From Lantana camara (taxonomy: Eukaryota > Streptophyta > Magnoliopsida > Lamiales > Verbenaceae): a stretch of 64,000 nt of DNA. Shown here one piece after another: positions 454 through 60,500 of the stretch. How positions within the stretch are numbered: the stretch's first letter is position 1; every line of letters begins with the position of its first letter. The stretch spans positions 39,070,501 through 39,134,500 of the forward strand of contig CM074860.1 of NCBI GenBank assembly GCA_037501455.1, given 5' to 3'. The notes beneath the pieces were generated by a model. It was given only the letters and a program-made list of their open reading frames with translations, did not search any database and was not told where the DNA came from. Position numbers and translations under genes: made by a program.

Positions 454-3400
454 CTCTCAACCCCCACATATATACATAACATGAGTCGGGGGATCCCGCC
501 CGCTCCTTTGACGGGCCTGCCACTCAGCGCACCGTCGGCGTGGGAGAACTAAGTCTCCCGCACGTGGAGTCGTGTTGATGAGAGAGCCCGGCGACCCCAT
601 GGCCGACCCGAGATCACATACCACTCCTCCGGGGCCCAAACTTAGACTTATCAAACGAAGCTTAAACACAAGTCATATCACACTTATACACACTCACACT
701 TATCAAAGCTTTGCAAAGTAAACGAAAATAGTGCTTAGATACATATAAAAGTGTTTTCAAAGCCTCATAACAAACGGGATAAATCCCACAAAATACGTAT
801 CAAACACATATTTATATATATACATATATAAGTCGCATGCGAGTTCGAAATACAAATAGGGTCTTAGGTCATAATAACTAAAAGGAAAGAAAACCTCACC
901 TTTCCGACCAACCGAACCAAAGGAACCACCTCTACAACCTCGAGACAAACCTAAGAACAAAAGCAAAGAGCAAAGGACAAGCTTAGACTCAGGATGAACC
1001 AATAAGACGCTCGGTATATGCATATGGGTGGAAATGATGCATATGAAATGTAATAAGATAACACTTAGGTCACATGACATCATATCGAGATATATTGGAG
1101 CATAACTCACATATTTCACGTTCATAAACATCATGCAATGCATATAACATGTTATATAACAAATTAAGAATGCATACAACTCATACCAAAGAAAGGAAAA
1201 AGCATGCAAGGCAAGAAAATAAGTTATGAAGTCATACGTGCACATAAGAGGGCATTTAGTTCACATAAGGCACATTTTACGTCTAACGAATTCACAAACT
1301 TAGCACAACGCATATAACACATAATTCTAACATACAACATACCAATTTCAAGCAATGACAAGCCATAACATCACATATCATACATATAAACAAGCATTCA
1401 ACACCTTAGGAACAAGGTAGGGGAGGGAAACGAACAAAACGGACAAAGAAACAAAGTTCGGGCAAGAAAACTCAAGTTTTCCTGATCCAGGGCCGTGGAT
1501 ACTTTCAACAGAAACATCCCTGCTGCTGGATTCCTATCCACGGCCGTGGATTTGATCAAAGCCAAAAATCCACGCCCGTGGATCCGCTTCCAGTGACCAA
1601 AACTCGATTTTTAGCCCTCAAACTCACCAAGAACCAAAACCAAAACCATACTAACATCAAACCAACACAATATAGAAGATATATGCAGCAAAGATTCAAA
1701 GGTTTATGCCCTAATTCATACAAGAACCAAAGCTAAAGTGAGGAGAGGGAAGAGATGCATTGCATATTCATGCTCAAGCAAATTCATCAATGGCATGCTC
1801 ATAAATCCTAAACCAAAGCTCAAACCAAGTTCATGGATTCAAGACCAAAGCACTATCAAATCATCACATTATCAGGCCCTAACACGCAACAATAAAACTG
1901 ATCTCAATCATGCAAGAAAACCAAGCAAGCAAAGACATGAACGCAGCAGGCCATTCACTTCAAGTTTGAGGCTAAAACAGGGGATAAAAGCTTGGAAACA
2001 CATAACTAACATGTAGAACAACTAAAGCACATCATGTTCATGCAATTTCACACGAATTGGAGCCTAAGAAATCAATAAACCAATCCAAAAATCATGACAG
2101 CAGTTCGGTTGAAGGAGGAGCAGATTCGCAGCAGTTTTTCAAGCTCAAAACTCATCAATTCATCAAAGGGTTTCAAAGTCAATTCATCCATAACACATCT
2201 ACCAAGTATCATGTATCAAAAATGAAGCAAAACAAGTTCATATAATCAGTTTTTGAGCACCAAAACAGCCACAAAAAACCATTGCAAGGAAGGAAAGAAA
2301 ATAGGTCATGTCCTAACTCATATAACTCATATATGCAGCTTATATGAGGCATTAAATCAGGGAAAAACATAGCGTATTCATAGAACAACATGTATATTAC
2401 ATAACCATGCATTAGCACACGAAATTGGAGGCGAGAATTCAATCATTTGATCCCAAAAACGTGACAGCAGTTCATACCGGGAGAGCAGATTATAAATTTC
2501 AGTTTTCATGCCCAAAAGCTCAAAGTTTCAACAAAGTTATCGAAGAAGAAATCACCCTAACACATCTAGCATGAAGTATAAATCAAGAATGGAAGCAAAG
2601 AAGTTCATATAACCACCAAAGATGTATGAAATCAGCCCTAAATCCAACCTAAGACATGGAAGCAAGATTTGAACTCTAACCCTTCCTATTCATGCCATCT
2701 CCCAAACTCAAATTAAATATCAAGTAAAACATGAAATTCATGGATCAAATTCATCATATAATCATGGAGAATTCGAAAATCTACTTACCTTCAAGAGTTG
2801 ATGAAGTATGGGAGAGATCAAGCTCCAAAATCTCAAGCCACGGAGAAGGGTTTCTTCTTTCTCTTCTTCTTCTCCATTGCAGCAGCTTTTCCTCTCTCTT
2901 GGGGGTGTGTGGCTCGAAATGCTGCTGACAAGGGAGAGAGAGGGATGAGTCAAGCTCATATAAACCAAGGTTAAGGCTTAGGTAAGGTTAAATTGGGCCC
3001 ACAAAAGTAAGACTAGTCAAAGAAGGTGGCTTTAGTGCAAGCTTCTCATTCCTGGCAGAAAACGGGGGTCCAAAAAGGTTTATAAAAATACCAAACCTGG
3101 TTCAAATGTTTCCTTTCTTCGTTGCGAGTCCAACGCATCTTCCGAAATTCGAATCCGAATTCCCGAGCTCAAGTTATGGCCTCCGGAACACGAGGCGCGC
3201 TAAAACTAGTTAGGCCCTCATGTCCCTCGTCAAATACTTAAGGTTTAAAACCTCGAAAAAATAACCCAAAAACTCAAAACGAGCATGTAAACACATTTAT
3301 AATTCACATATATCATGCATTCCAAAATTTCACAAAAATCGGAATTGAATTCCAGCACATAACTAGCAAATTACGAGCATGCAAACTTAAACGTTTAAAA

Positions 3401-13746: not shown

Positions 13747-14338
13747 AAGTTCTCTAAAAATGATGACGTAACAATCCCACTAATGGGCTCTATGTACTAC
13801 TTCAAATCTCAAGTAAGTTACAATACATTCTCCTGAATATTTCTATTCTACTACTTTTAAATTATGCAAGTGGATAAGACCCACGTCCCTCGTTTCTACG
13901 AGCGTGGTTGGCAATCAATTTCAATATGCACAATGTTATTGCACATGGGTTACGCTTGCCAGCGCTTTACTCCACGTGGGGGGACGCCCTTATAAGGATA
14001 GCCTGGTAACGCTCACAACCAACATGATGAATCGAAGAAAAACACAAGGGAAACCCTAGTAGGCCTTGGTTGTTAGTCACAACGCATTGCGCTTGAAAAC
14101 GGGATCGCTTGCAAGTCTAAAAAATCAACTAGTACAATCGCGTTCATTCAACGGTAACGTTATTCGGAATGAATTAACTCAAATCTTGAACACCAGGGCG
14201 TTCTCAAGGGGGTGATCCCCGCGCTCGTTCAAAAGCAGCCGATTTTTACAAAATTCTTGTTAAGACCAAGCTAAAAGTTCTCTGAGAAAGAAACTCACAC
14301 GCTTACCTGAAGGTCTGAATGGATTTATATGTACGAAA
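13747..14338 (+). other. F untranslated region after pol
   Basis: This is non-coding sequence between the integrase stop and the tandem array. No open frame above 60 codons is present. A gtaagt (13813) and short C-rich tracts are visible but no function can be assigned. Confidence 0.5.
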
Positions 14339-14775
14339 ATTTTCACAAGTCTTGAACGAGGGCAGCCTCTCAGTAAGACCCTCGTAGTTACTCAAGACTT
14401 AGTAAAATTTTCTAACTGTAAAAGCAAAGTTTTCACAAGTCTTAAACTAGGGCAGCCACTCAGTAAGACCCTCGTAGTTACTCAAGACTTAGTAAAATTT
14501 TCTAAGTGTAAAAGCAAACTTTTCACGAGCCTTGAACGAGGGCAGCCTCTCAGTAAGACCCTCGTAGTTACTCAAGACTTAGTAAAATTTTCTAAGTGTA
14601 AAAGCAAAATTTTCACGAGCCTTGAACGAGGGCAGCCTCTCAGTAAGACCCTCGTAGTTACTCAAGACTTTATAAAATTTTCTAAGTGTAAAAGCAAAAA
14701 TTTTCACAAGTCTTGAAAGAGGGCAATCTTCCAGTAAAACCCTTGTGCTTACTCAAGATTTAGCTAAAACAAGGC
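14339..14775. repeat. Tandem array of 90-bp hairpin units, ~4.8 copies
   Basis: Units begin at tttcac at 14341, 14431, 14521 and 14611 (exact 90-bp period) and 14702 (91 bp, more diverged, partial). Each unit is an imperfect inverted repeat. AAAATTTT, AAGTCTTGA and ACGAGGG on the left pair with CCCTCGT, TCAAGACTT and AAAATTTT on the right, around a 16-base loop. Changes such as aagtcttga to gagccttga in units 3 and 4 are not fully compensated. Tandem repeats in the 3' untranslated region of Tat/Ogre elements are known and can seed satellites. Confidence 0.92.
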
Positions 14776-22373: not shown

Positions 22374-23185
22374 TGCTGTAGGATTTTACTATAATTAAAA
22401 ACCAATTGTTCAAGTGTACACTGACATACGCGTAGCACAATAGGATTGAACCCACAGGGAAGGGAAATCAATCACTACTCTATATCCTTCTCTAATCTAA
22501 AGGCCAAACAAAAAGCAATTGGTGTTGTTATCTATTAATCTACTAAAGCAGAAATTAACAATTAACTAGGAATTAACGCAAGTAATACTAAAACACACTG
22601 TAACGCCCCAGTTTTTCAATTATGTATTTCATGATATTTGTGAATTATTTGATCAAGTGTCTACATGAAATTTTACCAACTTGTAATTTATGGCATGATT
22701 CATATTTAATTGATTTGTGTTATTTAATTTTCTTGACTTGAATAATTGCAATTATGATTTAAATTATAACTTCGTGAATTCAATTTCGTGAGTGTGTGTT
22801 TAATTCTCCGAGCATGATTTAAGTGATTTAGCATAATATATATATATTTAACTCCATATCCTTTTAGGTATATATATATATATATAATCATCTCCCATAC
22901 ATACTAAGTTGATACACCTCTAACTTGTAAATTCCCAAGAGACAAGGGCTTATGTACAAATAAGTTTTAATGCCAAGACTTTCATCCCACTTTAATTGTA
23001 TACCATACATAGATATATACACATATACATATATATCTTGCCTCATATATTACATATACATATACATACATTACCTTTTTCATTTCATTCATGAGATAAG
23101 CTCAAGAATCATTTCCTCGAGATGTGTCCCTTAGTTATTTTACCAAATGCCCGTGTGAGATGTGTCTGCCTTACCCGAGAGCTTC

Positions 23186-23231
23186 GAAACGCCCATTTCT
23201 ACTTTCAATTCATTTTTCAAACGGGCGTTTC
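23186..23231. repeat. Palindrome pair, word GAAACGCCCGTTTC (A2)
   Basis: Copies lie at 23186-23199 (gaaacgcccatttc) and 23219-23231 (aaacgggcgtttc). This is the smallest cluster in the series. Confidence 0.7.
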
Positions 23232-23739
23232 TCCCTCATATGAACTCCGATTGACCTGATTTTTGAGGCCACGGAAACCTCTTGAAGTCTAGAACAACCT
23301 CCAATTAGAATAACCTCAATAATCAATTCTTTTGGGTATCGCCATTTTCCCGACAAACTGCACTCGTTTAACTTCAAGCTTATGCCATTTTGTCCTCGCT
23401 TTGAACTAGAAAACGAGCCATATATCATCAGAAAGGTCTTTGTGTGTAGTTTCATTCCCAAAAAATAAAACACAATTCTGACTTCTAGAATTAAAGATAT
23501 TCCAGTTTTCCCTCAGCATGTACGTTTCCTAAAATTGGTACTTAATTGCTCAAACGTGATTGTGTGACTCCATGCCTTACATGAATTGAACTTGAAATGG
23601 TTAATGATATAAATACGTGACTTCTTGATATTAATTTCACCTCTTAGGTGTTAATTGGTTTTCATACATGCTAAGTGTCACTTGATTGCTTGTTTTATTT
23701 ATTTACATGAGCATGGCCGTACATCATACTTGGTCTCAT

Positions 23740-33778: not shown

Positions 33779-35833
33779 CTCATATTGAGTCTCGTCTCAC
33801 GAGTTTCCACTATTCCCTTCTTGTCCAGTTTTTCTCCAGGGCGGAGATCATGGATTTTTTGGGCACTTTCTTGTATCCTTGTCTTGTCCCGTCGCTCATC
33901 AGGTGAGGTTTAATTCTAGATATATAGAACCCATACAACCCCTATGTGATGTTTTCGGCCAAAATGTATCTATATATTTATAGTTTTCCAAACCCTAATG
34001 ATTTTCAACTGATTTCACGTAATGGATTGATTGGTTGATTGATTGGGCGAGTAAAGCATGTTCAATTTGGGCCCGAGGGTAGTGTATTGAGCCAACTGGG
34101 GAAGAAAGGGCTGACGGGTAACTCTTGCGCTATCCTCACCAACTTTGGGATAACCCCCGAATCCACTAGGAGATTAGTGGAGGAAAGAGTTCCGGGCATA
34201 GGGACTCATGAACCCTATGCCCAGTGAGATTGGGTGGTGGGGCCTTGCAATCCCACCATCACCGGAGGAAAAAGGGATTGAAACTGCAAATTGTGCACGA
34301 TAATAACTTGCATGTTCACTGAACCATGTATAATCTAAATATTGGTAATGTTCACTATCAGAGTAAGGTTGGAGAATTGCCCTCACTCGCCGGGCCACTG
34401 ATTGAATTGAATTGAATTGATTGTATTGTAAATTGGATAATGTAATCTCGGGCGAGAACTACCTTGTTATTTAAACTTATATTTCTTTCTTTTATAAAAG
34501 CTTACCCGAGATTATGACTTGCATGGTAATTGCGCTTATATTTATTTAAACCCCTCACTCAGTCTTTCACAGACTGACACCTCACATTTTCAGGTTTGGC
34601 AGGTTGAGTGGTAGGCGGGATCGAGTCGGTCTTTATTTTGCGTCTAGCACAGTCTTATGTATTTTGTTAATACATATGTATATTATTGACGCATATCTCT
34701 TAATTATGACTTGTTATTGAATAGTTGGGATTGTATATATGGAAATGTTGGATATGGACTGGAAATGGTGATAATGAAATGCATGAATATTATGCTTCTA
34801 TTTTATTGTTATATAAGTTGGTATTTGATTGAGGGTTAGTGCTGCCTAGCTAGTGGATTATTTTCTTTTGTCACCCGTTCGCTATAGTTTGGTTCATGTA
34901 CGGATTATCCATTTTGTATGTGGACTGAGCTATAGTGCGGGGGTGTGGCATCTCTACTTATAGAGGTGCGACACACACGAAGTAACTTCAGTAAACTAAA
35001 CAGGCAGGGGTAAAGTAATAAATCATACAATCAAGAGCTGATACGATACTTGTCTGACAAGTGTAATTCTACAACCTAGTCACTTATATTTGTATTACCC
35101 TCTCTCAAGGGGTAATCAAGTGCTCAATTAGTGTTCAATGTTTCTCTCGTAATCACCAATAGTTAATTAAACCATAGGAACAAGACTAGTGCAATTCAAT
35201 ATTATAGCAGCTCGGTATGGAATAAGATTACTATTGTATAAGCTAGGACCAAATCTCTTTGTATCGTACAACTTACAAGTTATGAAAACCATCTAAATTA
35301 CCATCACTCTTCGGTCTATAGGCAATTATGACACATGCTAAGGGTGATCAAGCCATCGCCAGTCAATTCAAACCTGTCTTCAAACTAAGAATTAACACAA
35401 GTCATTCAAGTATCATATCGAACATCTATCATGCAATCATAATCACTCCCCCTAGCCTTAGAGAATTAGCTACTCATAATTAAAACAATACTCATAAAAC
35501 TAAAGGAAATTACATTAAAATAAATCATATTCATCAATTCTAAACAAAGTCTCAAAAACAAAAGCATAAACATTCAGTGCTATCTAAAAACGAATCTAAC
35601 ATACGAAAACTAATCAAAACTAAAATCAAAGGAATTAGTCTATAAATTAAAGCAACAATAAAACGAAAGATCGTTCTAAGAATTCAATCCTTCCGTCTTC
35701 TCGAATTCTCTGAAAACTTCTGAAAAACCTTGTCTTCTCTCCAAACCCTAGGTCACGACCTGGAAGAAAAGCTCTCTCCAAAAAGACTCCAAAACGCACT
35801 AATATAGCAGCCCAAATAATTCTCACCGCCCTA

Positions 35834-36046
35834 GGTAACCGACATTACCTCTCCACGTACCATTATTGTTAACGCCCGTTACTGGTGAAATCGCAGTAAC
35901 GTTTTTATTAGTGGTAACGGGCGTTACCACTTTTCTTCTGCACAGGGGTAATGGGCGTTACTTCTCATCTCTCGTCAAAGCTCCACTCCTGTGTGTTGTA
36001 ACGCGGGTTACAACAATTGAACTCCTAAGTGGTAACGGGAGTTACC
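35834..36046. repeat. Palindrome cluster, word GGTAACGCCCGTTACC (C1)
   Basis: Copies lie at 35834-35849 (decayed), 35868-35882, 35911-35930 (perfect arms GTGGTAAC/GTTACCAC), 35946-35961, 35994-36015 (arms tgttgtaac/gttacaaca) and 36031-36046. In LTR orientation (minus strand) the cluster lies just upstream of a TATA-like GCTATATT at 35808-35801. Confidence 0.88.
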
Positions 36047-37435
36047 CCATTCTCTTCAAAAAATACGTGAAATTGCTTCGCTTCGCGGTTTCTCATCTCC
36101 AACTCTAAAATCACCTGAACGGAGCAAAATACATACATAAACACATCAAACAACACAAAAATATAATCAAATTACACTCAAAACCATGCAATTTCTACGC
36201 ACAACACCCATTGACATGATCGCTGGAGGACCCTCTGGTTGTGTGTCACCCCGTCTGCCCACACGTACAGGTTTGTGCGATGTGTGAGTTTAATTTCCAT
36301 ATTTGCATTTATTTCATATTAATTGATGCATTTATATTTGAATTATATTTCTTTTATTCAATTCTTATATGAATGTTTGAATTATTTGATAAGAACTTGC
36401 CTTATATGAACTTATGATGTGAATTCTTGCGATACGTGTAAATTTTGAATTAAGAATTTGAATACCAACCATGTTAATTGTGAATTATGTGATATATATG
36501 ATTTTAGGACTAAATTCTATAATTTAAACTTGTTTGGACTCAATTGAACTTTTGTTCAAACTTTTGGGCCATTTTGTAAATTGGCCACTGTTGAGTCATT
36601 GATTCATAACTTGAGCTCGGGAACTCGGATTCAAGTTCCATCATCTTTGTTGGACTCAAATCGATGATTCGGACCCAATGGAACAAGCCTTGTAATTTTT
36701 TGATGCCGTTTCGACCCCCCGACGATGCCGATTTTGGCCATACGTACCTATCTCGTACCTATGACCTACCTTGGAGCTAGAGGACTCATTCCTTTGTCCT
36801 TGCTTTGACTTATACACACAAAAAAATCTCTTTCTATCTCTTATTCAGCTGATACATGAACCAAATCCACGGGAAAAAGGAAGAGAGAAGCCAACAAGAC
36901 AAACCTCCATTGTTGTGTCCTTAAGCTCAAGTTTAGGCTATTTCTTGCTCCAATCTTTAAGGTAATTTAGGACTTTTGTTCTCCTTGTTCTTGTGATCAT
37001 TTTTCTCCATATGATTCATGCTTTAATGTTATCGATTCATGGATATGCTATACATGTTGAATTGTTAGGGTATTTGATGATTTGGAAGAACATGTACATC
37101 TCTTGCCTACTTTGAGTTTGGAGACTTATATATTGATCTATGTAGCCCATTTATTCCTTATACTTGCTCCGATTTGATGTTGTTTGAATGAGGTACGATG
37201 TTCCATTAATGATCTTTTGAGTTCTTAGAAGTTTTGGATGAAAACTCTTGCCTATTTTGCTCTCCTTCCTTGCCGGTTTGTTGTTGCACGTATGGAGCTG
37301 ATTTAGGGTGATTTTGTGCTTTGATTTTTGTGGTTTCTTTGATCCTTTACATCCTATTATGTTGCTACTTGGGTTATGAATGATGAACAGGGGTTACAGC
37401 TGCAAATTCCATGGAGAAACCGAAGCAAAACTTGG

Positions 37436-37610
37436 TGACACGATCGTATCTCAGGGGCTCAATTTTTTGTACTGAGACATGCCGGTGTCTCCTTTTATGC
37501 TTAGGGAGAGATATGGTCGTGTTTCAGCCTTGAATTTAAACCATTTTGGTTCCATACTAAGACATGAACGTGTCTCATTTTGTTCTTCGGAGGAGACATG
37601 ACCGTGTCTC
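37436..37610. repeat. Palindrome cluster, word GAGACATGACCGTGTCTC (A7)
   Basis: Five copies lie at 37436, 37474, 37508, 37559 and 37593. The arms are GAGACA/TGTCTC around a core of the form YG-NNCG. The fifth copy is the best. Copies are spaced 34-51 bp with unrelated DNA between them. Confidence 0.88.
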
Positions 37611-38569
37611 AGCTCTTATGTGTGACTGCTGTGCTTTTTCATTTTTGTTCGCTTGTTTTATTATTCTCTTACTTCATATAGGACTTTTAATTAGTATTAG
37701 CATGTTAGATTATGAGTTAAGTTGCTTGTATTATATTTTCGGATCAATTTGATATGATTTGTGTGAGATATGAATCGATATGCCTTAAGTGGTACGTTTA
37801 TGCACTCATATGCATACATTGCATTCATGAGCATTTCCGAGCGTCTAATTGGCACATGATTGAGTCTAAGTCTCGGGTTTTATCTCCTTTTGTTTCAAAG
37901 TCTCTTTCGGAAGTCACCGAGCCCCAGGTTTAGGTGTCCATTGCTTGTTTCGGCTCGGTCTCTACACTCTCTTTTGCTACAAAGTGAGGTTTAGGAAGTT
38001 TTATTTTAGTTATGAATCCTATGGCCTTTATGTGATGATTTCTCACACCGCATGCGACTATATACTTATTATATAGTTAAATACGTGTGTTTAAGCTATG
38101 TTTATGATCTTATGAATCCCCTTTGAGTTTATGAAATCGGTATAAGTATGAGCATACGTAAGCTTAAGATTTTGAATCCTTTTGTACGTTTATGTTATGT
38201 ATGAGCGAGGTATGCCCTGAAAGATGGGAAGTTGATTTGATTTTGTATGTTGGGCCCCGGGAATTATGGGTAAGGAATGGCTGGGACAGCAAGGGTCGTC
38301 AGGTTTGGCCTGTACATAGTTCCCTTTGAAGTTTCACGTGCGACTCTTGGAGGTTGGAAAGGCGTGATACTTTGAGCCCTCGGTGGATAATCGGGGAAAG
38401 GCATATTATGGGTTAGCTACCCCGTATATGTTTGTATTGTAGGCGGAGAGGGTTTGACTCCCAAACGCCAAGGATGTGGTGGTGGATTGGTATTTATGAG
38501 TTATGTATTTATGATATGTTATGAGGAGTTGGTGGAGGTCCGTACTCGCCGGACATATGTTTATGTTAT

Positions 38570-40018
38570 TGTTGAGTGTGAAATTTGCATGAATCTTAGC
38601 ATTAATTGGAGTATATTGTTGTGTTGTTTGATGCGTTATGTGTTTATTTTGCTCCATTTAGGTGATTATTGAGTTGGAGATGAGAAACAGCGTTCAAAGG
38701 TGAATTCACGCGTTTTTGGAGGAAAAAGGAGTAACCCCCGTTACCTCTTGGAAGAACAAAAAGGTTAACCCCCGTTAACAGACATAGGAGCATCACGTTT
38801 GGCGAATCAGACGTTACCCCTGGGCAGAAAGAAAGTGGTAACACCCGTTACCACTTATAAAAGCGTTATTGCGATTTCAAGGCAGTAACGGGTGTTAACG
38901 ATAAATGCACATGGATAGGTAACGCCCGTTACCTAGGGCGGCGAGATAAAAATTAGGCTTGCTATTTAAGTGCGTTTTGGAGTTTTTTTTGAGGGAGTTC
39001 TTCCGTTCGTGACCTAACCAGAGGAGAGAAGTTCTGGAGTTTTGAAGAGTTGTTCAAAGAATTTCGAGAAGACAAAAGGATCGAGTTCTTTATTAATTTC
39101 GGTTTTTCAGTTTAATTACTGCTTTAATTTCTCAAACTAATTCTTTTAAGTTTGGTTTTAGTTAATTTTTATGCTAGATTCGTTTTTCCAGATGTTTACT
39201 GAATGTTTATGAGTTTGTTTTTGAGACTTTGTCTTTATTTAATGAACATGAATTCCTTTAATGCAATTTACTTTAGTTTTATGAGTTTTTCTTTAATTAT
39301 GAATAGCTAAACCCCTAGGGCTAGGGGAGTGATGACGAATGTCCGATATGTACTTGATATAATGCTTGAATGACTCGTGCTAATTCTTAGTATGAAAAAT
39401 GGTTTGAATTGAATTGTGAAGGCTTGATCACCCTTAGCATAATCTAGAATTACTTGAGAATCGAGAGGTTAATAGTAATTGAGAAGGTTTTCATAACTAG
39501 TAGATTGTATGAATGCAAAGAAATTTGGTTCTGGTCTATACAACAGTCAATCTTTTTCCATGCCAAGCCACTAGAATAGGAATTGCACTAGTCTTGGTCT
39601 TGTTGGTTTAATTAATACATTGATGATTGCGAGAGCAACATTGAGCTTAATTAAATACACGGTTATGCCTTGACAGAGGATAATTCATATATAAGTGACT
39701 AGGTTGTAGAATTGCACTTGTCAAACAAGTATTGTATTGAATCATAATTGCATAAGTCATTGCCTCCCCTGCCTATTTAGTCTACTGAGTTTAATCAGTA
39801 TTTAAGTGTGCTATTTGTGTTTTGTTAGAGTTAATTACTTCAATTTTATTCTAGTAGATAGAAATAACAACTTGAATTCGTTCGGTCTTTAGATTAGAAA
39901 TAAGATATTGAGTAGTGATTGATTTCCCTTCCATGTGGGTACGATCCTATTGTGCTACGCGTATATTAAGTGTACACTTGCACGATTGGTTTTAACTTAG
40001 TGAATCTAAACCACAACA
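38570..40018 (+). mobile_element. Solo LTR C2 (C family), 1449 bp
   Basis: It starts TGTTGAGTGTG and ends ccacaaca. The target duplication is gttat (38565-38569 and 40019-40023). It is inserted in A7 and inverted relative to C1. It has a TATA-like tatttaa at 38963-38969. Near the 3' end is gtgctacgcgtatattaagt, which C1 shares. No internal region or coding frame is present. Confidence 0.9.
38731..38934. repeat. Palindrome cluster, word GGTAACGCCCGTTACC (C2)
   Basis: Copies lie at 38731, 38763, 38835-38854 (arms gtggtaac/gttaccac), 38883 and 38917-38934 (perfect arms aggtaac/gttacct), plus a decayed one near 38811. The last copy ends 29 bp before the TATA-like box at 38963. The word is the same as in C1. 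Confidence 0.88.
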
Positions 40019-48598: not shown

Positions 48599-49383
48599 TG
48601 TAACGCCCCAAATTTCCGGCTTTCCAAGTACGCGAATTAATTTCCGAATATGCCTTAATTGTTATATGTCCTTAATTGGTCATTATTTTAAATTCGTGGA
48701 CTAAATTTCATATATATATATTCTTGGACCTAATTGACCACTTTCTAAACTTTTTATACTTAATTGCATAACTTACAAAATTTGGAGGATTTAATTGCAA
48801 AATGGGGTAATTCATCTCTTATAAGAGATGAATCGCGGTATGCATCTCACACACAACCTCTCTCTCAAATTTTCACCTAAAATCATCTCCATATTTGCTT
48901 TCTTTTACCGGGCCAAAAACATCATGGAAGGAGGAGAAGATTGCATCAAATCGATCAAGTTTTGCCAAGAAAATTGGGAGCTTTAAGCTTCTTCATCATC
49001 TTTCCTCTCTTTCTCCCAATATAAGACATGAATATATGAATATTTGAATTCATTATGTGAAGCTAGGGTTATGATTCTTATGGAATAACTTGGTTATATG
49101 ATGCTAGAAGCATGATTACAAGCTTTAGATTTGATTTCATGCATTAACTTTGAGGATTATGGAATTATATGATGAATCTATATATGCGCTTGAAGTTGAT
49201 GATTTGTGATGATCAAGCATGATTTGTGTGATTATATTGGTTTTTAGCATACTATAAGCATGTATACATCTTTCCCTTCATGAATTCTAAGGTATGGAAT
49301 TGATTTATGTAAGTTTGATGGATTTTGGAAGTGGTTCGTAGCTCCCCTGTTCTTCATCCTCTGTTCTGCATCTTCTGCGTAAC

Positions 49384-49580
49384 GGGAACGGCCCTTCCCG
49401 TTCCCTTTGTATTTGGGGAACGGCCGTTCCCATAATTTGAATAATGTGCCAGGCGGCAAGGACGGGAACGACCGTTCCCACTTTGTCTCACAGACGGGAA
49501 CGGCCGTTCCCATCTTCGGGGAGCCCGACCAGCGGGAACGGCCATTCCCACTTTACACTTAAACCTGGAACGGCCGTTCC
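49384..49580. repeat. Palindrome cluster, word GGGAACGGCCGTTCCC (A3)
   Basis: Six copies lie at 49384 (cccttccc variant), 49416-49431 (perfect), 49464 (one core change), 49496-49511 (perfect), 49534 (one change) and 49565-49580 (first base changed). Spacing is 31-48 bp. It is the best preserved cluster in the window. Confidence 0.95.
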
Positions 49581-50029
49581 CAGCCCTCTGGAAGTGCAGA
49601 AAGTTTCTGCATAAAATGGAGAAATCCAAATCCTTTTGTTTACCTTTAATTAACACTAATATGCTATTATATGATCAATAGCATGTCATAATATGAGTAT
49701 ATTATACTACATTATTCATTGCATGCTATCCCGTTATCTGAACATGCCGTGTGTTGTATCTGATAGTGTTATCAAGTTATAATCTAATGAGGGTACAATT
49801 GTTTTATTCCTTGCCAATGTATTCCAGAACGGAGATCGTGATCAATAAGCGAGTTCATATATTCGTGAATCGTCGTGTCAACCGTTAGCAAGCAAGACTG
49901 GTCATGCAAAGCCATGTACGTATCGTGATTAACGTGTCATTGTCCAGATCGTGTAAAACAATTCGTGACTATCGTGTTATCGTGATCATCGTGACTATCG
50001 TGCTATCGTGTAAACATGTTCTGTTGGCC

Positions 50030-50215
50030 AGGTCCTCCTTAGCGAGGGTGCTGGGCTGGTCTTCGGGCTGGCGGTTGTCCGTCCAACCACAAGAAGAACA
50101 AAGCCTTATCGTGTAGCTACGTTCTCCTGGCCAGGTTCTCCTTAGCGAGGACGCTGGGCTAGTCTTAGAGCTGGTGGTTGTCCGTCCAACCACGGGAGGA
50201 ACAAACCCTATTGTG
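50030..50215. repeat. Two-copy tandem duplication in A3, ~92 bp unit
   Basis: The phrases gccaggtcctccttagcgag / gccaggttctccttagcgag and tggttgtccgtccaaccac recur once each in the same order. The phrase 'atcgtg(a/t)' is also repeated many times at 49830-50280 as a short irregular repeat. Confidence 0.75.
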
Positions 50216-51644: not shown

Positions 51645-54600
51645 TGTGATACCCCGTCTTTTTGGTAATCCAGGTATGACGTCACGAGTGAGTTTAATTG
51701 TGTAATTGACTTGATTTTAATTGTAAATATGTGATGTTACATGCCTTATGTGTCAACTTGTATCTTATTTTAATTATATGCGCATTAGAATTTAATTAAT
51801 TGTACTTGGACTCAATTGTCCAATATTTGCAAATTAGGGACTTAATTGTAATTGGGGTGTTTTAGCCTTCGTGGCTACCTTGAGATCGGGAATTCAAATT
51901 TCAATTCCGACTTCGCCATTAGATTTTTTTCGATGATTCGGGTTCAATGGAACTAGCCTCGCTCTTTCCTGAAGCCGTTTGACCTTCCTACCGATTTATT
52001 TTCCAACCGAGGGAACCGAACCGAACCGAACAGAACCGAACCAGTTTTTCCTTGGCCTTATAAACCAAGCCACTCCCCCTCCCCTTCATTCTTGCTTTTA
52101 ATGTGATCAAGAGGAAGAAGAAAAGAAAAGAGGGTTTTCCCCATCTTCAACCTTTGAGCTCAATCCTCATCTCCAATTTTCGTCCGATCAACGATCCAAG
52201 GTAAGATTTGAACTTCTTTCCTCGTGTGCTTCGACTCTACCCGATTGAATCTTGTTTTTCTTGCTTGATTCTATGAACTTGGAGAAAATGATAAATAGTG
52301 CTAATATGTCAAAATTTTCTCCCTTGCTCTCATACTTGAATAATTTGTTCTAAGATTGATATATGTTGATCTTTGGAGCTTATTTGATGCATTCATGAAG
52401 GAATTTTGTTGTTTCCTTGAGTTTCCATGATTTGCCATTTTTGAAGCTTGATATATGTGTTCATGGCAACTTATTTAATCCTTGTTTTCATGCCTATTTG
52501 ATGATGGAATATGTTAGAGCATGTATATATGGACTTATGTATTGAATTTGAGGTGAATTGGTTGAGTATGCATAAAGCTGTGATGATTTTTGCTTCCTCC
52601 CAACGAGTACCCCTGCTGCTGAGCCTTTCTTCATACCCAGAACAGTTCCCTGGGTGGGGAACTTTTAGCTTGAAATTATCCCCAGGCAGGGACCTTGAGT
52701 GCAGAAAAGATTCTGGACTGTTTTCCCCGGGCAGAGAACTTTTGCCTTGTAATCTCCCCGGCCGGCTACCCCTTCATCCGAGCTCCGTTTGACCTAAATT
52801 TCGGATACGATCAACCTGTTTGAGTCTAGAACAATCTCCAATGAGAATCACCTTAAAATTCATTCTAGATTATGAGTTATAACCGATTTAATTTGGTGTT
52901 GCCACTTCGCCGAAATTTTGCACTCGTTCAACTTTAAACCTCTACCATTTTCGGATCGCTTTGAACCATGATTCGAGCTATATACCATTTGAAAGATCTA
53001 TGTGTCCAGTTTCATTTTCAAGAAAAAAAAACTTAATTCCCATAGCTCAAACTCAAGTTATGATCGTTATCCAACAGCTTGTCTGTTTCGGAAAATGTCG
53101 AGCTTTTTCCCTTTTTTGCTCGGAACCATTTCTTATGCTTTTGTTCCGCTTTTCTTGCATCTTTTCACCTCCGAACCCATTTATGTATGTGTATGTATTT
53201 GTTCTTATATGCATTTTTATGTCACTTAAGTAATGTGATTTGTTTGCACGAAACACATATACACCTTGTTATATATCTCCACTTTGTGAAATGCAATCCT
53301 TTGTATGAAATAAGTTTGAATATGAACCTTGATATGTATCCACCTCTTTTAAGTGCCTATGCATACGCCGTGCGTCTATGTGGTTCATCCTTGAGTCTAA
53401 GTTCTGTATTTTTTATCTTCAGTTTGTTCAGGTGCACCCGGGGTGGTGTTTCGTTAGCCGTGTTGATTCGGAGGTGGATCAATCGTCTCGTTCTCTATTC
53501 CATTGGTGTAAGGTGAGGTTAGGTTATAGTGATACCCTAAAGAAATGTGCTCGTTTTCTATGCATGCGGACTATAACCTTAAGTATATGTAAATATGTGT
53601 GAGATATGTAATTTTATGAACTTGTCATACGTTGGTAAGTACGAAACGCTATGTACAAGCCTATGTACGCTTATTTTATTTGATTTGGTTTGATTTGTTA
53701 TGTTTTGCAACATTAAACCACACTCCAAACCATGTGCCTCTTACTAGCCGAGAGATACGAATTAAGGATTTGACATTGAGAGGTATGAATAGCGTGGTGG
53801 TTGCAAGGTAAGGTTTGATAAGTAAGTTATAGTTTGTTAATGTTAAGTAGTGGGTTATGTTTGTTCTGTAATGTAATGTAATGATTTGTTTTTGAGTAAT
53901 CGGCCCTGGAGATTGTGGGTAAGGGAGACCCAGGACGACCATGGGGTCGCGGTTATCACCCCTGTGCATGTCTCTATAGTTTGATTCGGATTACCCCTGA
54001 TCTCACCAGGAGGTTTGGTGAGTGATGGAGATCCTGAGGGTTTGGAGTAGCTTGCACTCCCCTCACCTGAAATGGATGGTTAGGGTCGCGCAACCCTTCC
54101 ATCGCCGGAGAAGGAGGTTTGTTCTGTAATATTTCTTTTGTTTTGATTTGTAATGTCTGATTCGTACGAGGTACCCGGGATGGGATTTGTTACTCGTACC
54201 CGCTGAGTTATGTATGTAAGCTCTGTTAATTTAGTGAAACGGGAATAGACTCTTAATTAAGATAAAATATGGATTTTTTTGTAAGTATAAGCTATGATAC
54301 GAAATGTTTGATAAGATTTGATATGATAAGTATGTTTGATACGTGTGAATCCATTAAGTTAAGCTTTGTTCTATTTTGTTAAGAATTCCTATATATATAT
54401 ATATATATATCACGGGCAAAGTTTGGTGTGCAAAAATTATCCCAGAGTTCACGAACTGTGTGTTTGAATGTCTTTGCTCTCTCTCTCTCTCTCTCTCTAC
54501 ATATATATATATATATATATAGCGTGGGTGGGTAGCCCCTCACTCAGTCCGTGTGACTGACTCCTTCTCCCATTTTTGTTTTTATTGTGTAGGTTTGCAT

Positions 54601-57569: not shown

Positions 57570-60500
57570 TGTAGCGCTCGGAGTGGCGAGCCACCACATC
57601 CCCCGCACCTAGCCCCAAACACACATATGAAATAGAAATCCATACATGAGCCCAAGACTAAGCGAACGGGAACCTACACACACTCGCTAGGCCAGACAGA
57701 GCTATGACAGGACCAGAGCGAGCAAAACAATAAGCAGGCGGAAGCAAGTAAAAAAATTCAAGAAGATAAATCCACAAAAACGGGTTCAACTCTCCCTAGA
57801 AGCCTGTCCCGAATAATTAAAACAAGAATTCATAAGGTTCATACATAATTCAATAACGTATGCAAATCATATACAAAAGTGTATCCAAATGCAAATGAAA
57901 ATGCAACTCGAACTAGGTGCATCGAACCAAAACCAGCAAACTAAAAAGTTAAAAGGAGAGGGTTATCCATCGACTGAGTGAGGGGGCTAATGCACACCCA
58001 CACACGTATACATATAAAGCAAAGCACGTATTAAACAAAAGACTATGAACCGGGATAAGGTTTTGCTACCAAAACTATTTTTGAATCAAACTTGTACATA
58101 TTCATATCAAAATCGAACATAGCTTAAAAGAAAGGTTTTCATAATCAACATATCTTAACCGATTCTTATACCCGGCAAGTACAGGCCTTACACAATCTCC
58201 TCAATTCTTAACATAAATACAAAATGGAAAGTATAAATCATAAACAATCCTTCCCCATCAACGATGTAGTTCGGGGAGCAAGCCCTCACTACACATTACC
58301 ATACCAAAAACACACGGGCTAGATAATCCACATAGTACCTTCCCCGGTTATCCACCGAGGGCTCAAAGCACCACGCCTCCTCAACCTCCACGAGTCGTAC
58401 GTCAGTACTTCAAATGAGAGCGTGCACAGGGGTCATAACCAGCGACCCCGGGATCGTCCCGGGTCTCCCTTTCCCACATCTTGGGGGGTCCCAAATACAA
58501 ACCATAACATAACATATCATAACTCGCTACATATCAAACTTATCAAACTCATAACTTACATACCTTAACGGAGCATACCTTACCTTGCAACTTAGCATAT
58601 GCTATAGGCATACCTCGCTGTATCATCCTAATCCGTAGCTAGACACACGGTTTGGAGCATAGCCTTGTTGCAAAACATTAAGCTTACGTACGCTTATACT
58701 TATAGTTTTCAAAACCCGTAACCATTTGACAAGATCATAAACATATTGTATAAACACTTATCTATTATATAAATATAATAGTATATTCGCATGTGGGGTT
58801 GAAAATGAGCACATAAGATTGTAGGTCGCATTAACTATAAAGAAACAAACCTAAAACCTCACCATTTACCGAAAGTGCTCACGGAGGAGCTTTGACGACT
58901 AAGAAGAAGCTAAATTACGGAACCGACACCTTTGGAACTCAAATCTAAGAGAAATAAACATAAACTTATGACTTAGACTCAATCATGAACCAATTAGACG
59001 CACGGCGATATATAAGAATGTAAATGGATGCAATGCACGTTCTATACATTCGTACTTAAGCATACCGAAGCAATTAGCATAATATTACACAAACACTTCA
59101 TAAATTAAATACATAACACATTAAATAACCTCATAACACATCATGTTTTAACATATCATGAGCATTTTTAAGGTTAAAGTGCATAAGAAAGGCAAGAGAT
59201 GCAAGAAGACAACATACGTGTCACTTAAACGTTCATGCATTCGAGTCAAGTTTATACTTAATAAACGAGGTCTTAAAATTGAAATAAGTAATTTAACACA
59301 TCATATTACATCATATTAACATATTAGGATCATAATCGGGTTGGGAATTAACAAGAAAAATGGAATAAAAGCACAAAATAGGGCTTCTAGTGAAAATAGG
59401 CCAAAGCTGACAGTTTTATCGAAACGAACAAGCTGTAGGAAATCGGGCATAACATAGGTTTAAGAGATGGGAATCAAGTTTATTTCTTGGAAATGAAACT
59501 AGACAAATAGATCTTTCTAATGATATATAGTCTGAATCGTGGTTCAAAGGGATCCAAAAGTGGCGGAGGTTTGAATTTGAAGGAGTGTAGAATTTAGGTG
59601 AAGTGGTGAAACCAAAATAAAACGATTATATCTCACAATCTAGAACGAATTTTAAAGTGATTCTAATTGGAGAGTGTTTCAGGCACAAAGAGGTTGAACG
59701 TGTTAGAAAATCAGGTCAAACAGAGTTTGTATGAAGGGGTACCGGCCGGGGAAAAACAAGGCAAAAATTTACCCGGTCGGGGAAAGCAGTTCAGAAACAT
59801 TCTGTTCTTAAGGTCCCCGCCCCGGGACCATTTCAACACAAAAACTCCCCGCCCGGGGAGTCATCTGGGCAAACAAGTATGACACTCCAAGTACTTCATA
59901 AACATGCAATAAAACTCGAAAATGCGCACAAGAATTCATCAAACCGATCACAAATTCCACACAACAGTTTAATTAAGGAGGAGCAGATTATTAAACCAAG
60001 TTTGGAGCTCAAGAACTTAATATTCATCCAAAGGGTTCTAATGGAAAATCATCCATCATACTCCCACCAAGTGTTAAGTGTTAAAAATGAAGATGAACAA
60101 GCTCAAATGATCAATTTTTATGCACCAAAATAGCCATAAACACAACTAAGTCATGAAAACCAGAATCATCTCAAAATTTCCATATTCAAGTACAACCCCA
60201 AACCCTTATCAAATCTGATGCAAAGCATGAATTACATGGACCAAAACATGCATAAAAGAGTGAATAATACATAAATATACTTGCCTTTAAGGGATGGAGA
60301 AGTAAGAAAGTGATTAGAGCTAAAAATCACCAAAGGGCAAGGAGGGTTCTTTCTTCTCCTTTCTTATTCTTCTCTTGTACTGAATTTCTTTGACTTGTGG
60401 GTGTGCGGTTCGAATTTCAGGTCTTAAGGGAAGATAAGGGTTAACTCAAGGTCACTTAGTCATGGTTTAGGCTTGGTTAGGGTTAAGAGGGTCCCACCAA

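Follow-up and report, generated by a model that had tools for sequence, protein, structure and literature searches.

Paired short palindromes with changing words in long terminal repeats of a plant genome

In the VANDAL transposons of Arabidopsis, dense short motifs in non-coding DNA vary between relatives while their copies evolve together; the motifs of VANC21 (YAGTATTAY) share a single orientation, and the VANDAL elements holding them encode VANC (PMC5735166). The clusters described here share these general features, but consist of dyads paired at distances of 31-34 within long terminal repeats (LTRs), and only gag-pol domains occur in the one internal region read; the link to VANDAL/VANC drawn by an initial annotation of this DNA is best taken as an analogy. 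Template-switch hairpins (PMC8794818) show comparable compensatory stem changes and short-loop inversions, but the cases treated in the passages of that study, in rRNA genes and microRNA loci, have neither a fixed pair spacing nor a transposon array. The kissing loops of Ty1, which serve packaging and dimerisation (PMC5454406), offer a parallel as self-complementary sequences in retroelement RNA, whereas here the units are many, show no G.U preference and are known from DNA alone. Palindromes and plant LTR retrotransposons have been brought together before (PMC6911290), but there as favoured insertion targets, and here the palindromes lie inside the LTRs. The Tekay/Del lineage shares with the element examined here gag, protease, reverse transcriptase (RT), RNase H, integrase zinc-binding and SH3 domains and the sequence EESTWESE, but the passages on that lineage in PMC3350952 do not mention paired LTR palindromes. 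Searches of the open-access literature listed no description of such pairs within plant LTRs, and PMC11302176 has the searched word in its reference list only.

Clusters of the window and an element with such clusters

The window, meaning the whole stretch of DNA analysed, is a 64-kb part (C6:39070501-39134500) of a 1.27-Gb plant assembly. The palindrome clusters that the initial annotation reported in its A LTRs are genuine and greatly exceed chance expectation; several details are corrected here. Six near-palindromes of GGGAACGNCCGTTCCC type (GGGAACG-NN-CGTTCCC) make up the A3 cluster (49383-49582), and under a unit rule that demands fully complementary arms and one CG or more (N5-[CG/TG/CA]-NN-[CG/TG/CA]-N5) the window contains 13 units against 0-1 per Markov shuffle (n = 10 shuffles), or 26 against 3-15 when one arm mismatch is tolerated. 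Among the words listed by that annotation, GGGAACGGCCGTTCCC of A3 occurs twice in the window (49416 and 49496) but not at 49384, and those of A1b, A6 and A7 are present, though only once each (1536, 59844 and 37593); the words given for A2 (GAAACGCCCGTTTC) and A5 (GTTCCCCGGGCGGGGAAC) have no occurrence in the window. A2 comprises two decayed copies, and A5 is decayed. The core, thought to be a constant ACG-S-CCGT, has a narrower invariant part, CG-NN-CG, and in A5 and A6 a C precedes the CG. Two clusters with units of the GGTAACGSSCGTTACC type, A8 and A9, had been absent from the list. All are placed in Table 1; LTRs of the window were recognised by a start motif (A1b, A2, A3), by flank similarity or by the downstream anchor block described below, rather than by coding parts.

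Table 1. Palindrome units, clusters and anchor blocks in the window (positions count from its first letter)
Feature	Position	Strand	Remarks
A3 LTR start	48599..48610	+	by motif TGTAACGCCCCA
A3 pair 1, unit 1	49383..49400	+	CGGGAACGGCCCTTCCCG
A3 pair 1, unit 2	49415..49432	+	32 from unit 1
A3 pair 2, unit 1	49463..49480	+	centre CGACCG
A3 pair 2, unit 2	49495..49512	+	32 from unit 1
A3 pair 3, unit 1	49533..49550	+	
A3 pair 3, unit 2	49565..49582	+	32 from unit 1
A1b cluster	1485..1583	-	word AATCCA; 3 units, two of them 32 apart
A2 pair	23184..23233	+	word GAAA; two decayed units, 32 apart
A5 cluster	52645..52770	+	word TCCCC; decayed pairs at 32 and 31
A6 cluster	59736..59861	-	word TCCCC; fourth unit imperfect
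A7 cluster	37435..37610	+	word GAGACA; units 37559 and 37593, 34 apart
A8 cluster	35833..36047	not assigned	word GGTAAC; pairs at 34
A9 cluster	38729..38934	not assigned	word GGTAAC; pairs at 34; inverted A8 relative, 76% identical
A7 anchor block	37804..37898	+	80.7 bits; profile seed; ends in 3' splice-site-like tract
A6 anchor block	58944..59034	-	67.8 bits; profile seed
A1b anchor block	950..1057	-	67.5 bits; profile seed
A5 anchor block	53338..53424	+	54.4 bits; profile seed

Other repeats were seen in the same DNA. Two inverted stretches of the GGTAAC family (34988-36206 and 38570-39788; 76% identical) stand on either side of the A7 LTR, a 103-nt tandem duplication lies downstream of the A3 cluster (50004-50209), and a 90-nt tandem repeat at 14336-14769 (4.8 copies, 91% matches) is mostly open in one frame (14264-14716).

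One element with such clusters was characterised at other loci. Two loci, L001 and L002, lie in direct orientation 7.3 kb apart, are 99.8% identical over 2,457 nt (a second such comparison, L003 with L004, gives 99.9% over 2,463 nt), and are the LTRs of one element; they start with TGTAACACCCC, measure about 2.6 kb as judged by the primer site, and are followed by that site, TGGTATCAGAGC. Between them, the internal region L028 contains a gag/protease frame and a frame with Pfam matches to RT, RNase H, integrase zinc-binding and SH3 domains, giving in this one element the gypsy order of gag, protease, RT, RNase H and integrase (the last by its zinc-binding domain). Near the end of the pol frame, EESTWESE fits the Tekay chromodomain motif EEXTWEXE, and QVLRNK agrees with a further Tekay motif, (K/R)-X-(L/T)-R-X-(k/r), at three of four set places, the first being the exception (PMC3350952); the Pfam chromodomain had no match in L028 at E 0.001. 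By its domains and EESTWESE the element is Ty3/gypsy and Tekay-like. Autonomous members had been suggested as a place to look for DNA-binding protein domains, but this one internal region offered only those of gag-pol, and among its 14 longest frames shown the longest other sense frame is 99 aa.

Pair spacing, words and the position of clusters

A property that had escaped the initial annotation is that units stand in pairs, their starts 31-34 bases apart, in all word classes identified. Same-word pairs of units 18-60 apart numbered 45 in 14 LTR stretches, several of which share a flank group, and 25 of the 45 have a distance of 31, 32 or 34. Such a pair is present in 13 of the 14 stretches, the A2 pair (32) having failed the script rule and been seen separately. 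Markov shuffles of the 14 stretches (n = 20) yielded 0 pairs, and 198 kb of random loci yielded eight at any distance of 18-60. A spacing of 32 (31-33) characterises the words GGGAAC, AATCCA, AAATCC, TCCCC, GGACA and GAAA, and one of 34 the words GGTAAC, GAGACA and GGTGAC. Successive pairs follow one another at variable distances, mostly 37-73 and once 26. The spacer is often T-rich right after the first unit (ATTTTG), and a CGACCG centre marks seven of the 31 first units, compared with one of the 31 second units; both asymmetries give the module a direction.

Throughout the genome, the pattern CGGCCGN{12,42}CGGCCG matched 16,017 places, compared with 1,318 for its reverse. The first 50 matches listed include 17 at 32, two at 31, eight at 48, seven at 42-43 and five at 29; judged by their letters, half of those at 48, and the two at 26, are other repeats. 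Among 50 listed matches to exact GGTAAC units, 5 of 19 gaps below 200 equal 34; among 50 to exact GGGAACGGCCGTTCCC (GGCC centre), 1 of 9 equals 32, exact copies being rarely 32 apart because the partner unit usually has another centre. Matches of the pair pattern in IMG/VR, on three contigs, were rejected as GGGAACG-rich or isolated sites foreign to these LTRs; two IMG/VR contigs (L005 4700-4900, L006 3560-3720) are GGGAACG-rich in both orientations and unrelated to plant LTRs. Dense arrays of CCGACGGAATTCCGTCGG-type palindromes (L009 8876-9726, L027 4100-5300) appear to be an unrelated repeat.

Exact words are abundant: GGGAACGGCCGTTCCC occurs 15,128 times in the genome (reversed control 0), GGTAACGNNCGTTACC 5,070 times (control 1) and GGTGACGNNCGTCACC 61 times (control 1). 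Twenty places on C1 with the exact 16-mer (L029-L048) were read. When grouped by flank, 31 unit-masked LTR stretches fell into eight groups at 250 bits (A7 joining A8/A9 through overlapping window stretches), and the word does not follow these groups. GGGAAC is found in four of the eight (A3, L001, L031, L048), whose mutual similarity is at most 224 bits, a weaker resemblance through which these groups may owe the word to a shared ancestor. Close relatives may have the same word, as in L001 and L003 (76.6% identical), A8 and its 90-94% identical relatives, and A8 and A9 (76%). Conversely, L001 holds two words, since AAATCC..GGATTT, with a G-rich centre, directly follows the GGGAAC pairs (LTR 983-1104; locus 1543-1664) and forms pairs of its own at about 32, as well as being present in L003 and L034. 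Arms are therefore not distinctive of individual LTRs, as had been claimed; a word that serves several groups and close relatives, and that can share an LTR with another, is not an element-specific name, and the suggested element-specific recognition code is weakened, as it also is by an internal region (the one read) with gag-pol domains alone.

Clusters with different words nevertheless share a position. Downstream of the cluster, a block of about 100 nt is common to seven LTRs with different words, which were used as profile seeds: A1b (AATCCA), A5 and A6 (TCCCC), A7 (GAGACA), L016 (GGACA), and L001 and L003 (GGGAAC). Its 3' end is a pyrimidine tract, mostly followed by YAG, that resembles a 3' splice site. 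The profile further matched five more loci of the L001 family, L050 (GGTGAC), L048, L034, L049 and four places in L051, one of the four weakly (E 0.0024). The block thus spans six flank groups and five word classes, from which we conclude that the clusters are homologous and that their arms have covaried. The profile search found no anchor in A2, A3 or A8/A9, and for the L031 group only the weak match at L051:4285. Within 900 nt upstream of four anchors (L051:6643, L051:9132, L027:614 and window:43666, the last two themselves weak, with E 5e-5 and 2e-4) there was no recognisable cluster, the sequence being AT-rich or without pairs, as judged by a script that also missed the decayed A5 cluster. 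L001-family LTRs have a brief conserved stretch and AAG|GTGAGG after the anchor block, and ahead of the cluster GTAAGT or GTATGT, which resembles a 5' splice site; this flanking by 5' and 3' splice-site-like sequences is conserved in most of eight aligned LTRs and suggests introns inside the LTR.

Complementarity and conservation of the arms

The claim that the dyad is kept while its letters change is supported by homologous clusters with different words, by compensated changes between corresponding units, and by the genome-wide counts at arm position -3. There, 15,128 G..C (GGCC centre only) and 5,070 T..A combinations stand against 53 + 53 mixed ones; as the counts are copies of few families, they demonstrate linkage rather than 20,000 events. 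Double compensated changes distinguish A5 (GTTCCC..GGGGAAC) from A6 (ACTCCC..GGGGAGT) in corresponding units, and A8 (TTGTAAC..GTTACAA) from A9 (TGTTAAC..GTTAAC); A7 (GAGACA..TGTCTC) and L016 (AGGACA..TGTCCA) are 80% identical in their downstream flanks. The outer arms of three A6 units, AC..GT, GG..CC and TTT..AAA, are unlike one another and each complementary. In 22 rows of the A8 family the outer pairs of four of six units read A..T, T..A, G..C and T..A, whereas the second unit is not complementary at the outer pair and the sixth only in some rows. A further palindrome, GAGTACCCGGCCGGGTACTC, adjoins TCCCC units at C1:4044440-4044520.

Complementarity of the outer arms was measured by shuffling right arms among the units of one LTR (1000 shuffles). 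In 13 LTRs with 55 units, complementary combinations numbered 38 at -5 (33.5 permuted; 7 of 1000 shuffles reached the observed value), 28 at -6 (21.4; 12 of 1000), 26 at -7 (17.7; 3 of 1000) and 23 at -8 (19.2; 97 of 1000). In 36 LTRs with 177 units, 152, 7, 0 and 159 shuffles of 1000 reached the observed values at -5, -6, -7 and -8; in the nine LTRs with words other than GGGAAC (33 units) the corresponding 30, 93, 307 and 692 mark the signal as weak outside GGGAAC. One random LTR per group, in six draws, gave fractions of 0.004-0.044 at -5, 0.006-0.023 at -6 and 0.002-0.16 at -7. We also assembled a set of 31 modules from 59, one misregistered module and otherwise near copies having been removed, with some flank groups still represented twice; its positions -1 to -5 are biased by the selection rule and -6 to -8 are unbiased. 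In this set unit 1 is complementary at -6 in 20 of 31 modules (12.9 permuted, fraction 0.0005) and unit 2 at -7 in 14 of 31 (8.1, fraction 0.0015), with no excess for unit 2 at -6 (9 of 31 against 11.2). Complementarity of one unit with its partner in the pair did not exceed permutation at -5 to -7 in the 31 modules, and at -8, on the inner side, was 16 against 12.5 (fraction 0.08). The outer arms thus differ between units of one LTR and yet stay complementary within units, more than permutation allows. The uniformity of arms within an LTR, as first described, holds nearly so at the inner four positions but fails at -5 to -7, and the proposed homogenisation of copies correspondingly applies to the inner arm and not to the outer.

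Units are strongly conserved in one family. Pairwise identity of the GGGAAC units in eight L001-family LTRs is 1.0, 1.0, 0.96 and 1.0 (one unit per GGGAAC locus being exact by choice of loci), compared with 0.90, 0.81 and 0.96 for the spacers and 0.65-0.96 for unit-free 20-nt windows; the second word, AAATCC, is less conserved (0.76-0.96).

Interpretation of the paired dyads

An explanation is needed for the pairing, the spacing, the homologous position of the clusters, the compensated arm changes and, in one family, the strong conservation of units. We tentatively favour, with somewhat less than even confidence, a selected cis-acting array of paired dyads that would bind protein dimers and change its letters by template switching. 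Its building block would be two dyads (arm, CG-NN-CG, reverse-complement arm) with starts 31-34 bp apart, or about three turns of B-DNA. A homodimeric DNA-binding protein may occupy each dyad; the host probably encodes it, given that gag-pol domains alone occur in the single internal region read. Both dimers of a pair could bind cooperatively on the same side of the helix, and LTR transcription might be driven or protected by the array. With template switching between arms, an altered arm would serve as template for its partner, such that the dyad survives a change of letters, and the changed word would persist once a paralogous factor reads it. A spacing near three turns, conserved centres and words reused across groups point to dyad sites for paired protein dimers, and outer arms that are complementary within each unit fit hairpins or the copying of one arm from the other by template switching (PMC8794818, PMC8604942); taken together, they favour a mixed account in which selection keeps dyad, centre and spacing and template switching moves the letters. 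Against it, a sequence-specific dimer does not predict that the outer arms of neighbouring units differ and yet are complementary, 34 bp is 3.2 turns rather than 3, and the directionality conferred by the T-rich spacer and CGACCG centre is needless for a pure dyad. The shortfall of unit 2 at -6, the weak signal outside GGGAAC, the single gap of 32 among nine for exact GGGAAC (GGCC centre; 50 matches listed), the origin of the genome counts in few families and the four anchors lacking a cluster also count against this array.

A rather unlikely alternative is that of tandem stem-loops of RNA (or single-stranded DNA) in the LTR transcript, with variable stems, a conserved C(GNSC)G loop and two hairpins per module. 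In retroviruses, hairpins downstream of the splice donor act as a packaging/dimerisation signal, and these stem-loops could, for example, be such a signal of the unspliced genomic RNA. Stems compensated unit by unit around a constant centre would be expected of them, as would the strand orientation of the spacer and the CGACCG centre, and the L001-family cluster lies between splice-like signals, with a 3' splice-site-like anchor in several groups. Hairpins, however, need no rigid spacing of 31-34. Wobble pairing, considered as evidence for RNA, was discarded because G.U is no commoner than A.C: mismatches in 31 modules number 16 for G.T+T.G and 29 for A.C+C.A, with sense orientation presumed and the strand of A8/A9 not fixed. 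The minimum-energy fold moreover joins unit 1 to unit 2 in four of five modules, but complementarity between units does not exceed permutation; a long hairpin between the two units was likewise rejected as a maintained feature for want of an inter-unit excess at -5 to -7.

A mainly mutational origin, in which template-switch correction of quasi-palindromes combines with slippage or recombination that multiplies units, would dispense with function altogether, and we consider it unlikely. Hairpins that show compensatory changes and loop inversions can arise and persist through template switching (PMC8794818), which also homogenises the arms of inverted repeats (PMC8604942); here GGGC and GCCC centres coexist among the units of one family, and arms reach beyond the word, although these centres and the double changes are seen among units rather than placed on a tree. 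Such a process leaves unexplained the 31-34 spacing across word classes, the constant CG-NN-CG and the greater conservation of units than of flanks. Simple descent, with few old subfamilies each duplicating a fixed palindrome and covariation arising as a founder effect, is improbable: the words common to L001 and L003, to A8 relatives and to A8/A9, and the flank similarity retained by GGGAAC groups, agree with it, but the double compensated changes in A5/A6 and A8/A9 and the within-LTR permutation results do not.

Returning to the favoured array of paired dyads, these LTRs provide thousands of sites in one plant genome at which a precise paired-dyad architecture is kept while its letters turn over, a natural experiment on the ways in which transposons may change cis-regulatory words without loss of function. 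If the letters move by template switching, that mutational process would be shaping a functional DNA array. A bolder extension, which we regard as quite doubtful, is a rewritable self-complementary address carried by a large retrotransposon group, a dyad-based system of LTR recognition in which any word serves provided that arms and neighbouring copies match. If true, it would be set apart from the element-encoded VANC system, and elements, by changing their word, could shake off or gain a reader without giving up the machinery.
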